Source: an uncultured Lachnospiraceae bacterium
Lineage (GTDB): Bacteria > Bacillota > Clostridia > Lachnospirales > Lachnospiraceae
Direction of reading: 5' to 3'
DNA: 64,000 nt
Assembly: GCA_900316395.1 (NCBI GenBank)
Contig: ONCT01000027.1
Location: 45,020-109,019 of the forward strand
The position numbers and the translations under genes were made by a program. The notes under the pieces were generated by a model. The model was not told the origin of the DNA, did no database searches, and was given only the letters and a program-made list of their open reading frames with translations. Of this stretch, positions 1 through 12,836 are shown in pieces (within the stretch, counting starts at the first letter, position 1; every line of letters begins with the position of its first letter).

Positions 1-66
1 GTACCCAAGACTATACAAAGTCGCACACAGTCCGAAGACTGCGATTAGGTCACTGATGGTCAGCAT
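1..66 (-). CDS. Putative holin-like small toxin, N-terminal part (runs off window)
   Basis: The first 22 codons read MLTISDLIAVFGLCATLYSL plus two more residues and continue past the window edge. A strong ribosome site, GGAGGTGAGG, lies just upstream. The peptide opens directly into a hydrophobic stretch, as in the very short putative holin-like toxins of Firmicutes, which have been proposed as type I toxins. A consensus promoter and a folded leader of about 118 nt precede it, which fits that class. Only the N terminus is visible, so the family assignment is tentative; any small membrane peptide could begin this way. Confidence 0.5.
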   Translation of the reverse strand, partial: MLTISDLIAVFGLCATLYSLGY

Positions 67-9698: not shown

Positions 9699-10679
9699 CT
9701 ATCTTATCCCTTCCGCTAGTTCAATAGTCTTAATATCTATCCCTTGCTTAAGAATATCTTCTTTGTCTACACCTTCGCGGAGCAACTCGACAGCCTTAAC
9801 AAGTTTATTCTGTCCACTCTCTTCTCCCTGGGAAATACCTTGAGAGATGCCCTGAGAAATGCCTTCTCTAATCCCATCATCATGCGCCTTAATTATATCC
9901 AAATCTAATACCTTGCCACCCATTAGATCACCTACTTTCTTCTGCGTCTGCTTCTGCTTCATAAGCTGCTTATATGATACTTTATTGATTAAACTAATTA
10001 TAACATCTTTCGAAAATGAGGACAACACGCCCTCTGCCACTAATTCTTCTAAAGTATCTATTATCCCACGATAAATCTCAACAAATTCATCCTGCTTTGC
10101 CTCATCTGCCTCTATGGCATCAAACTCATCCTTATAATTAAATGAATAGAACGGCAGCAAGAAATACAAATCATTCTCATAAACCTTCTCTAAGTCAAAA
10201 TCCGACTCCTTCATCACATCAACAAAGTAATTGTTGTCACCACCAGATGTATGCATAACAATCTCCATCTTATCTGGGGTTGAGTCTGAAGAACTCAAGA
10301 AGAGAATCCCTGTATGTGGAAAATATACATCCAACCTCCCAAGGCTAACTTCTCCTCTATCAAGTGCAATCTGCGCATCATATTCAAACAACCGAACTAT
10401 AATCGTTCCATCTGTATCATCTTTACTCTCACACTCTACATGATATGTATGCACCACATCGTTCTCTCTAATCTTAAGCAACGAATCAGTAATCCTCTTA
10501 TCCTGCGCACCACCTTGCTGATCTAAATACCTCTCATTAGCATTCCTAATAATCTGCGCATTCTTGCTGTAATTCATATCGAACATATAATTGATAAATG
10601 GAATGAGCAGTTCATCACACTTTACTACCATTGTACGAAATGCATCATCATACGCAAAATCTGAATACAAGTTATCCAT
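9699..10679 (-). CDS. Rpn-family recombination-promoting nuclease (PD-(D/E)XK, putative transposase-like)
   Basis: Members of this family are PD-(D/E)XK-fold endonucleases; the E. coli RpnA group stimulates RecA-independent recombination. The protein is about 326 residues. The N terminus MDNLYSDFAYDDAFR is typical. A nuclease-like core with DSLLKI and HVECES lies around residues 65-95, and the C-terminal region holds KVGDLMGGKVLDLDIIKAH followed by tandem GISQ units. The real start is the ATG at 10679 behind GAGGTGGTGAGG; the longer GTG reading from 10691 overlaps the ribosome site. Two broken copies lie at 11674-11917 and 12255-12682. Its promoter is near-perfect and overlaps two SOS-box-like sites, so damage control is inferred. 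Confidence 0.82.
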   Translation of the reverse strand: MDNLYSDFAYDDAFRTMVVKCDELLIPFINYMFDMNYSKNAQIIRNANERYLDQQGGAQDKRITDSLLKIRENDVVHTYHVECESKDDTDGTIIVRLFEYDAQIALDRGEVSLGRLDVYFPHTGILFLSSSDSTPDKMEIVMHTSGGDNNYFVDVMKESDFDLEKVYENDLYFLLPFYSFNYKDEFDAIEADEAKQDEFVEIYRGIIDTLEELVAEGVLSSFSKDVIISLINKVSYKQLMKQKQTQKKVGDLMGGKVLDLDIIKAHDDGIREGISQGISQGISQGEESGQNKLVKAVELLREGVDKEDILKQGIDIKTIELAEGIR

Positions 10680-10714
10680 CGACCTCACCACCTCTCATAA
10701 CACTAGCAGCATGC

Positions 10715-10763
10715 AAACATTTGTTCTATATATGATTATAGAACAGTTGTTCGGGTATGTCAA
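10715..10763 (-). promoter_or_regulatory. Consensus promoter with two SOS-box-like operators
   Basis: Minus strand: TTGACA (10763-10758), 17-nt spacer, TATAAT (10740-10735). GAAC-N4-GTTC (10741-10752) lies in the spacer and GAAC-AAAT-GTTT (10726-10715) lies just downstream of the -10. Both resemble the Firmicutes LexA site GAAC-N4-GTTY and would block RNA polymerase when bound. Confidence 0.7.
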
Positions 10764-10788: not shown

Positions 10789-10822
10789 AAAAAACCAGCA
10801 ACTACATCAAATAGTCACTGGC
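10789..10822 (-). terminator. Repeated terminator, copy 2 (after the histidine phosphatase gene)
   Basis: Minus-strand stem CCAGTGACTA/TAGTTGCTGG with a T run after it, the same stem as at 9617-9664. It lies upstream of the Rpn promoter and downstream of the phosphatase gene; 10823-10945 shows nothing else. Confidence 0.7.
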
Positions 10823-10945
10823 TAAATAAAACTCTTTATGTATCGCCTTAACTTAACAATTAAGTTGAGTGATTGTTCGGAGCATAGTGTGCTTGGAAAG
10901 AGCGCGTAAAGACGTTTCTTATATTAACATTTGATGAAACCCTAC

Positions 10946-11590
10946 TCAAAACTTAGCATATTGATCAACGGCATCATCAAGATCATAGTAGACCTTATCG
11001 TCCGTTATCAACCTTCCTATGCCCTGCTTGCCCTCAATGATATTCACAGCACAGTTATACGGAACATGTCCATGCCAATAGTCTGATTTATCGTCATATA
11101 AAAAGTTCAGCATTCCTCTAAGCGCAAACCCGTGGGTTGTAATAAGATATGTCTTGTCATCGTCTTGTAGGAGCAGCTCCCTAAGAAATCCCTGTGTTCT
11201 TTCACATACCTGAGCTATAGTTTCTCCTTTAGGACACCCCGCAAAATGGAATGGATCTGTAAAGAACATTTTTATCTCATGTTCATCCACTTCACGTTCA
11301 CCAGGACGAAACTTTTTCCTTTCCCACTCACCCATATTGATTTCCTTGAGGCGGTCGTCAAAAAGGATAGGAATATCATTTCCGCTCTCTTTTAATATAA
11401 TCTCAGCGGTCTCTCTGGCTCTGATCAACGGGCTGGATATACAGCAATCGAACTTAATCCCCCGCATACCTTGTCCTGTTATCATAGCTAATTTTCTTCC
11501 ATTCTCATTGAGCGGGTCATTCGTCCATCCCTGCAAGTACCCATTCACATTTGCATTGGTTTCACCGTGCCTTACTACATATATCAGCAT
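10946..11590 (-). CDS. Histidine phosphatase family protein (phosphoglycerate mutase-like)
   Basis: A 214-residue cytosolic enzyme of the branch-1 histidine phosphatase superfamily. The nucleophile motif is VVRHGET (5-11), followed by NENGRKLA and SSPLIRARETAE, the standard arginine-bearing helix. The second catalytic histidine sits in TTHGFALRG. Members dephosphorylate sugar phosphates, nucleotides or cofactor intermediates, and the substrate here is not predictable. An AAGGAG ribosome site precedes the ATG by about 10 nt. It sits alone among nuclease fragments and terminators, so the neighbours give no hint. It is intact although its surroundings are decayed. Confidence 0.85.
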   Translation of the reverse strand: MLIYVVRHGETNANVNGYLQGWTNDPLNENGRKLAMITGQGMRGIKFDCCISSPLIRARETAEIILKESGNDIPILFDDRLKEINMGEWERKKFRPGEREVDEHEIKMFFTDPFHFAGCPKGETIAQVCERTQGFLRELLLQDDDKTYLITTHGFALRGMLNFLYDDKSDYWHGHVPYNCAVNIIEGKQGIGRLITDDKVYYDLDDAVDQYAKF

Positions 11591-11673: not shown

Positions 11674-11917
11674 TTATAACTTTGTCATATACTTGCTTCG
11701 CTCATTCTTGGGAATGTCGAGGGCATCCATGGCTTCCTCTTCCCTCTTCAAGTCCGACATCATGCGCTCTTATTATATCCAAATCCAATACCTTGCCACC
11801 CATCAAATCACCCACTTTCTTCTGCGTGTCTTGATACTTCATTAACTGCTTATAAGATACTTTGTTAATTAAGCTAATTATAACATCTTTTGAAAATGAG
11901 GAGGATATGTTCGTCAA
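11674..11917 (-). pseudogene. C-terminal fragment of an Rpn-type nuclease (copy 2)
   Basis: Encodes FSKDVIISLINKVSYKQLMK and KVGDLMGGKVLDLDIIRAH, nearly identical to the intact gene at 9699-10679, then in another frame DALDIPKNERSKYMTKL and a stop at 11674. The N-terminal nuclease core is absent and a frameshift lies near 11730. Upstream it abuts an insertion-sequence remnant. It is a dead fragment. Its tail matches copy 3 (12255-12682) better than the intact gene, so at least two lineages of this gene were present. Confidence 0.8.
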
Positions 11918-11920
11918 CTA

Positions 11921-11949
11921 GAAAGTGAGCCACCTTATTAATTACTCCT
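11921..11949. mobile_element. Second copy of the insertion-sequence end block
   Basis: 29 bp matching 9581-9609 with two differences, containing one GTGAGCCAC unit. It borders the Rpn fragment on one side and the 92-residue hypothetical gene on the other. Confidence 0.45.
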
Positions 11950-11950
11950 A

Positions 11951-12229
11951 TTATGTAGGTATCACGCACTCTAAAAACGATACCCTACCATCTTCATAAT
12001 CCACTTTACATCTAGCTACATAAGGAAATTGACTATCAGATGTTAGTAGTAAACCCTCCCCACTTCGAGTTTCAGGTTGGTTGTTTACTCCTAGGAAGCA
12101 ATACAAATAATCTCCCCTGTCCCCAAAAGCGGAGCTAGAAGACTCTTGATATTTCTCAACAAATTCACGCCCCATCTTATCTATACATGCATTTAAACCT
12201 ATTTTTTGGGCTTTATCTATTGTAATCAT
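11951..12229 (-). CDS. Hypothetical protein of 92 residues
   Basis: A small soluble protein starting MITIDKAQKIG and ending FLECVIPT. I chose the ATG at 12229 because AAAGGGA precedes it; the longer reading to 12286 runs into the nuclease pseudogene. The sequence shows an N-terminal helix (residues 5-30) and a beta-rich half (YLYCFLGVNN, YVARCKVDYEDG). I do not recognise the family. The compact shape and position beside mobile-element debris would fit an immunity-type or cargo gene, but nothing in the sequence proves that. Confidence 0.55.
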   Translation of the reverse strand: MITIDKAQKIGLNACIDKMGREFVEKYQESSSSAFGDRGDYLYCFLGVNNQPETRSGEGLLLTSDSQFPYVARCKVDYEDGRVSFLECVIPT

Positions 12230-12254
12230 ATTTAGTTTCCCTTTAAATATCCCT

Positions 12255-12682
12255 TTATAGTTTTGCCATATACTTACTGCGTTCACTCTTAGGAATATCG
12301 AGCGACTCCATGGCTTCCTCTGCAGATATCTTCAAATTCTTCATCATACTACGAAGTGAAGATATTTTCTCTTCTTCTCTGCCTTGAGCTTTGCCTTCTT
12401 CAATTCCATCATCATGTGCCTTAATTATATCCAAATCTAATACCTTACCACCCATTAGATCACCTACTTTCTTCTGCATCTGCTTTTGCTTCATAAGCTG
12501 CTTATACGATACTTTATTGATCAAACTAATTATAACATCTTTCGAAAATGAGAACAAAGCGCATTCTTACTGTAATTCATATCGAACATATAATTTATAA
12601 ATGGTATGAGCAATTCATCACACTTTACTACCATTGTACGAAATGCGTCATCATACGCAAAATCCGAATACAAGTTATCCAT
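12255..12682 (-). pseudogene. Internally deleted Rpn-type nuclease gene (copy 3)
   Basis: The first 40 codons (MDNLYSDFAYDDAFR to NYSKNA) are nearly identical to the intact nuclease. At about 12562 they jump to FSKDVIISLINKV, missing roughly 180 codons including the catalytic core. The joint is out of frame, so the N-terminal part ends a few codons later. In the intact gene GCG occurs at both break points, which suggests deletion between short repeats. The tail ends KSERSKYMAKL. The upstream promoter and operators are also duplicated. Confidence 0.85.
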
Positions 12683-12717
12683 CGACCTCACCACCTCTCA
12701 ACACATTAACAATAAGC

Positions 12718-12766
12718 AAACGTTTGTTCTGTATATAATTATAGAACAGTTGTTTGGGTGCGTCAA
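12718..12766 (-). promoter_or_regulatory. Duplicate of the SOS-box-like nuclease promoter
   Basis: TTGACG (12766-12761), 17-nt spacer, TATAAT (12743-12738). Sites AAAC-AACT-GTTC (12755-12744) and GAAC-AAAC-GTTT (12729-12718) lie at the same positions as in the intact copy. The first site has lost one half-site base; the second is kept. Confidence 0.6.
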
Positions 12767-12788
12767 TGTTTTTTTCAAATCTTATAAT

Positions 12789-12836
12789 AAAAAAAGAGCT
12801 CTGGGCCCCTCGTTATACAACAACGGGTCGAGCTCT
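12789..12836 (-). terminator. Intrinsic terminator with interrupted stem
   Basis: AGAGCTC/GAGCTCT arms (12795-12801, 12830-12836) enclose a further CGTT/AACG stem. Seven T follow on the minus strand. Confidence 0.7.

Follow-up and report, generated by a model that had tools for sequence, protein, structure and literature searches.

The closest described systems are the Rpn nucleases (family COG5464/TIGR01784/PF04754) of E. coli, which comprise RpnA-E and the plasmid-encoded RpnP2 (RpnL/RpnS; Zhong et al. 2023, PMC10327210; Kingston et al. 2017, PMC5350276). The gene-within-gene arrangement of RpnL and RpnS has been shown in E. coli, and RpnS is also produced from a C. difficile gene (PMC10327210). 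The RpnS antitoxin, internal promoters or transcription starts and four-amino-acid repeats have been published for Rpn, and separate rpnS copies have been reported in E. coli (Zhong et al.; PMC10327210). Rpn nucleases induce the SOS response in E. coli (PMC5350276, PMC10327210). How the toxicity of RpnL is released is stated to be an open question by the discoverers of the RpnS antitoxin, who name regulated expression as one possible factor (PMC10327210). LexA is absent from the main text of both PMC10327210 and PMC5350276. The first-pass annotation of the present DNA was aware of no LexA control in this family, and the titles and abstracts of the open-licence literature likewise describe none for any rpn gene, although such an absence is no proof.

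Links between DNA damage and toxic or defensive genes are known from other families. The tisB gene of the E. coli TisB/IstR system is induced by DNA damage (PMC9040746) and TisB is described as a 29-aa membrane peptide (PMC11449926), while the AbpAB phage defence system is triggered by host DNA damage (PMC10732053). The Firmicutes LexA box of B. subtilis and C. difficile is GAAC-N4-GTTC/T, and one transposase of C. difficile ribotype 027 is named as LexA-regulated (PMC4234289).

The window, meaning the whole 64-kb stretch of DNA analysed here (G000:C46:45020-109019), belongs to the 2.17 Mb genome of a gut-type bacterium, on 75 contigs and 98.6% complete. On its minus strand, at 9699-10679, lies rpnL copy 1, which encodes a divergent Rpn (PD-(D/E)XK) nuclease of 326 aa. 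We propose, with a probability of about 0.8, that this is a chromosomal Rpn toxin-antitoxin gene, with the antitoxin nested inside the toxin gene, and that its toxin promoter has been recruited into the SOS regulon, so that LexA would gate the toxin and the antitoxin would also have a promoter of its own.

RpnL copy 1 gave no match to the Pfam and NCBIfam Rpn models. Among 31 aligned homologs, TIGR01784 was matched by 15 and PF04754 by 5, with E-values up to 0.01. Profile comparison with order-level TIGR01784-type Rpn proteins and E. coli RpnA yielded a probability of 97.9% (E 6e-13, 275 columns), and the assignment to the Rpn-type nucleases made in the first-pass annotation is borne out by these homologs and this comparison. 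In the alignment, D11, D65, E82 and R96 of RpnL correspond to D11, D63, E82 and R94 of RpnA, and D65, E82 and R96 are invariant in all 31 homologs. The catalytic residues of the family are present with one variant, since Q84 of RpnA is replaced by E84 in RpnL copy 1 and in its genus clade. The RpnA variants D11A, D63A and E82A lose all phenotypes and Q84K is inactive; E at position 84 was not among the tested variants (PMC5350276). Structure prediction from five close sequences was poor (pLDDT 46), comparing the family profile with solved structures returned chance-level matches only, and PADLOC gave weak matches only.

The promoter of rpnL copy 1 is the minus-strand sequence TTGACATACCCGAACAACTGTTCTATAAT (10763-10735), a sigma-A-type TTGACA-17-TATAAT element that matches the consensus at 12/12 positions. 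Two perfect elements of this kind occur in the window, including this one at 10735-10763, against a chance mean of 1.05 for sites with at most one mismatch. Two predicted LexA boxes on the same strand, each scoring 16.7 bits, are superimposed on this promoter. Box 1, CGAACAACTGTTCT (10740-10753), occupies the -35/-10 spacer and abuts the -10 element, and box 2, AGAACAAATGTTTG (10714-10727), lies 26 bp away, directly 3' of the predicted +1 (~10728). Each agrees with CGAAC-N4-GTTYG at 9 of the 10 specified positions, and both are conserved, box 1 in the related upstream regions L085 and L089. A leader of ~49 nt extends from the predicted +1 to the ATG at 10679 and contains the Shine-Dalgarno sequence AGGTGGTGAGG (10683-10693, minus strand). 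On the 5' side, an intrinsic terminator found by scanning (10793-10823, minus strand), with a stem that L085 and L089 share in their upstream sequence, insulates the rpn promoter from the upstream gene. The perfect promoter with two SOS-box-like sites reported in the first-pass annotation is thus confirmed at these positions.

The same annotation had named lexA and recA promoters with a different consensus as the observation that would speak against its reading. In this genome both promoters carry the same class of box. The sole lexA-type gene (C58:8199), which provides the single LexA_DNA_bind match in the genome, has five boxes upstream, for example CGAACAATTGTTTG and CGAACAAATTTTCG, and encodes a full-length protein with the Ala-Gly cleavage site and the Ser/Lys residues. 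The recA gene (C72) has a perfect box, CGAACCTTTGTTCG, less than 40 nt upstream of its start. A further box, CGAACATATGTTTG, belongs to a gene for a Y-family polymerase that was identified by eye. Judged by these sites, the box class of the genome is the Firmicutes one (GAAC-N4-GTTC). The lexA promoters of all eight genus genomes (8/8) carry four to six boxes, several of them 26-27 bp apart, a range into which the 26-bp spacing of the rpn boxes falls. Exact matches to GAACNNNNGTTC number 5 in the 2.17 Mb genome, including one at recA, compared with 76 for the reversed pattern.

To score the rpn sites, we used a weight matrix trained only on the lexA, recA and Y-polymerase boxes, with the rpn sites left out; its 21 distinct sites are partly related, so the scores are approximate (training range 13.5-20.7 bits). 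The four best matrix sites in the 64-kb window are the four rpn boxes, with the copy 1 pair at the top and the pair of a duplicated promoter next. The rpn operators therefore match the lexA and recA boxes of the organism and overlap the promoter. Taken alone, LexA control of rpn is well supported computationally and very probable, and DNA damage would be expected to induce rpn copy 1.

The operators are also conserved in orthologous promoters, so that three species of the genus share them. Orthologs with the same two-box promoter were found in G200 (L060/L085; 84.8% identical over aa 1-270 and 75% over the full alignment) and in G204 (L063/L089; 90% identical over 51 aa, with only the N-terminal part present at a contig edge). 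Across the three species the -35 element, both boxes, the -10 element and the spacing are retained, whereas the flanks and part of the N4 letters differ. In a search of the genus, the two-box pattern was found once per genome in three genomes, solely at rpn; the pattern misses the second copy in the window, one letter of which falls outside it. Paralogs that are 69-73% identical (L061, L065 and L066, in G200 and G201) have an unrelated promoter and no boxes. The two-box promoter was not found in the viral contigs searched. The gene is present in 38 of 200 family genomes, and in the window, G200 and G204 its neighbours are, by appearance, surface-polysaccharide-like clusters.

A scan of other rpn promoters, of the kind that the first-pass annotation had suggested, returned a single strong promoter-proximal box. 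It covered ~30 family-level, 23 order-level and 79 further order-level upstream regions, and a strong promoter-proximal box was absent from the ~120-130 other family and order rpn upstream regions, with the exception of L112. This distant Rpn gene comes from another family of the order (G293) and has the promoter TTGACA-CCGAACATAAGTTCTATA-TATAAT with a LexA box in the spacer; lexA of G293 itself has three CGAAC-N4-GTTTG boxes. L112 is thus apparently an independent SOS-controlled rpn gene. Given this one boxed gene among ~120-130 regions, rpn has probably come under SOS control on more than one occasion, though such control is rare, and LexA control would be a lineage-specific feature and not a family trait. 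The Rpn protein of L112 also has an internal methionine, Met211, preceded by a Shine-Dalgarno sequence.

In addition to the toxin, the gene most likely encodes its own antidote. The predicted internal antitoxin gene rpnS (9699-9923, minus strand; 74 aa) is the open reading frame starting at Met253, a residue invariant in 31/31 homologs. Its start is preceded by the Shine-Dalgarno region AGAAAGTAGGTGATC (9926-9940, minus strand; -16.0 kcal/mol), and the internal start region as a whole reads AGAAAGTAGGTGATCTA-ATG. Pairing with the 16S tail before Met253 is stronger than the synonymous-codon mean in 31/31 homologs (mean z -1.9), which are related and do not amount to 31 independent trials. The Shine-Dalgarno sequence before Met253 is also stronger than that before any other internal methionine of the same gene, a comparison in which the encoded peptides differ. 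The internal start typical of Rpn genes is thus present as a sequence signal. Four-residue repeats, GIRE-GISQ-GISQ-GISQ, begin ~16 residues after Met253, within the 8-20 residues past the internal methionine that characterize Rpn proteins, and are followed by tails that differ between the copies, as the variable tails of the family do.

Inside rpnL, at 9997-10025 on the minus strand, lies a putative promoter that would serve rpnS; it reads TTGTCC-17-TATAAT, carries a TG extension and has no LexA box. Its TATAAT is 73 nt before the internal ATG and is found at the same place in 10/31 homologs. Compared with synonymous codons it is enriched in the seven of these that have the TG extension (z 2.1-3.3), including homologs that are 34-41% identical, and is near the synonymous expectation in the three that lack the extension. 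An internal promoter for rpnS is therefore suggested. The predicted layout matches the published RpnL/RpnS gene-within-gene, and the toxin-antitoxin part of our proposal draws on knowledge of the family and on the internal-start statistics.

The window contains further rpn copies, all on the minus strand. A 237-nt block with the promoter and first codons of copy 1 is repeated at 12559-12795 (88% identical), and the 3' part of copy 1 is repeated at 12380-12578 (89%) and 11728-11926 (71%). The duplicated promoter, TTGACG-17-TATAAT (12738-12766), has a weaker -35 element than the TTGACA of copy 1. The first-pass annotation had stated that it preserves one of the two sites, but both are in fact kept within 12717-12766, as predicted box 1, CAAACAACTGTTCT (12743-12756; AGAACAGTTGTTTG on the other strand), and predicted box 2, AGAACAAACGTTTG (12717-12730), at 15.4 bits each. 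The box 2 sequence of the duplicate is also present in the lexA promoter of the same genome. Behind this promoter, a remnant of rpnL (12530-12682) encodes the first ~40 aa before a frameshift and stop (50 aa in all), and the nuclease core has been deleted. The rpnS of copy 2 (12255-12455; 66 aa) stands alone and is intact, with an identical internal Shine-Dalgarno sequence and ATG and a different tail. Copy 2 thus has the appearance of an antitoxin gene left on its own that has kept its SOS promoter. Copy 3 (11728-11926) is a decayed C-terminal rpn fragment with a frameshifted tail.

Copy 1 ends in a C-terminal tail unlike those of its genus relatives, so the specificity of its antitoxin may have changed. 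Matches to the window Rpn that are restricted to the C-terminal tail (69-92% identical) were seen in L081 (G000:C26), L064 and L069 (G205) and L084 (G201), which suggests that tails have been exchanged within the genus or that it contains orphan pieces of rpnS. Between the rpn copies lie a 111-aa open reading frame without a family match (11951-12286, minus strand) and a histidine-phosphatase gene (10946-11590, minus strand), possibly cargo of the duplications. Rpn was also considered as a transposase and this was rejected: no inverted repeats were found around the array, and PMC10327210 argues against it as well.

Two other loci of the genome may belong to the SOS regulon. At 191-219 of the window (minus strand, L005), a TTGAAA-17-TATAAT promoter has the LexA box CGAACATTAGTTTG in its spacer and is followed by a hairpin-rich leader, a Shine-Dalgarno sequence and a small hydrophobic open reading frame, MLTISDLIAVFGLCATLYSLGY... 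(1-66, minus strand), which runs past the window edge and is possibly an SOS-controlled small membrane toxin of a type I-like kind. At L003 (G000:C17:41026), the box CGAACACTTGTTTG precedes a phosphoribosyltransferase-like open reading frame and then a DprA-like one (by eye), a possible extra SOS operon.

LexA control by itself would also be compatible with a function in repair, in which Rpn, as a repair or recombination nuclease, makes damage-induced cuts that favour RecA-independent recombination or DNA processing and any part in phage defence is incidental. Overexpression of RpnA-D increases RecA-independent recombination in E. coli (PMC5350276), the property that the first-pass annotation had emphasized, and repair genes are among the other boxed genes of the genome. 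However, the internal antitoxin signal in 31/31 homologs, the variable tails and the decay of the tandem copies have more the look of a conflict or toxin-antitoxin system than of a housekeeping repair enzyme, and the patchy presence of the gene (38/200 family genomes) also speaks against a repair nuclease. For the present gene, a role as a toxin-antitoxin or anti-phage nuclease with a predicted internal antitoxin is better supported than one as a recombination factor, and we regard the repair function as unlikely. Another view is that the promoter is real but the locus is a decaying relic array with inherited boxes and an inactive protein. Copies 2 and 3 are broken, E84 is a variant residue and the tail of copy 1 is unlike its relatives; but copy 1 is intact, and its other catalytic positions, the promoter half-sites and the internal start are conserved across species, which leaves an inactive relic distinctly unlikely.

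The identity of the boxes can be questioned as well. GAAC-N4-GTTC palindromes are short, and LexA/CI-like repressors of phages and mobile elements can share the fold of LexA and bind similar sites, so a different regulator might act here and the gene might lie outside SOS control. We consider this very improbable, as the genome contains a single LexA_DNA_bind match, one box sequence of rpn copy 2 recurs in the lexA promoter and the spacing of the rpn boxes is the same as that of lexA boxes. It is hardly credible that the boxes are a chance product of AT-rich promoter DNA, even though the motif is short and the genome has isolated near-matches at other places: shuffled sequence would yield 0.017 equally good sites per 64 kb, a close box pair was found in 0 of 60 simulated windows, and the boxes are conserved in three species while the flanks diverge. 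An SOS-controlled Rpn toxin-antitoxin gene is the reading that we prefer.

We then propose a model for how such an SOS-controlled toxin-antitoxin gene may work. The promoter, the boxes, the LexA consensus, their conservation, membership of the Rpn family and the internal start signal are computational results; binding by LexA, induction, synthesis of RpnS, toxicity and defence against phages are inferred. In the undamaged cell, LexA dimers on the two operators, 26 bp apart, would shut the consensus promoter and little RpnL nuclease would be produced, while RpnS would still be made through the box-free internal promoter and the internal ribosome site. Upon DNA damage or phage attack, active RecA would lead to cleavage of LexA, the promoter would fire and the ratio of full-length RpnL to available RpnS would rise. 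In E. coli the SOS response is induced by Rpn nucleases, and SOS caused by RpnL could therefore make the circuit self-reinforcing; this feedback and the defence role are proposals of the model. One point counts against it: RpnS lies on the same mRNA as RpnL, and SOS would raise RpnS too. It is tempting to speculate further that the locus is a two-promoter damage switch, in which derepression of RpnL past a threshold, with RpnS supplied from the box-free promoter, becomes self-reinforcing and commits the cell to abortive defence, and in which the RpnS-only copy behind its SOS promoter is a damage-induced brake. This extended scheme is tentative, and we give it a low probability.

Together, the locus resembles E. 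coli Rpn in its catalytic residue pattern, its internal RpnS start with tetrapeptide repeats after the internal methionine, its variable tails, tandem duplicates and separate rpnS genes, and its internal promoter, which is putative here. It differs in E84 for Q and in a very divergent sequence, and, whereas E. coli Rpn induces SOS and is not described as SOS-induced (PMC10327210, PMC5350276), the present gene is predicted to be under SOS control. TisB/IstR and the window rpn both pair a toxic gene that is damage-induced (predicted for rpn) with an antitoxin, but the antitoxin is an RNA in TisB/IstR and the window gene is predicted to encode a nuclease and, in the same frame, a protein antitoxin. 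AbpAB and the window rpn both link defence, presumed for rpn, to DNA damage, but belong to different gene families. The genome shares with the SOS regulon of B. subtilis and C. difficile (PMC4234289) the box consensus, boxed lexA and recA and accessory genes recruited per lineage; unlike here, no rpn gene is seen for the C. difficile regulon in the passages of PMC4234289 covered.

The toxin-antitoxin nuclease and the repressor are both known, and we did not find their combination described. Two LexA operators on the toxin promoter and a possible promoter for the antitoxin offer a concrete and testable answer to how the toxicity of RpnL is released, and the signal for an internal antitoxin start is shared by a wide range of divergent homologs from Firmicutes. 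The predicted circuit would link a nuclease that causes SOS with SOS-driven expression of the same nuclease.
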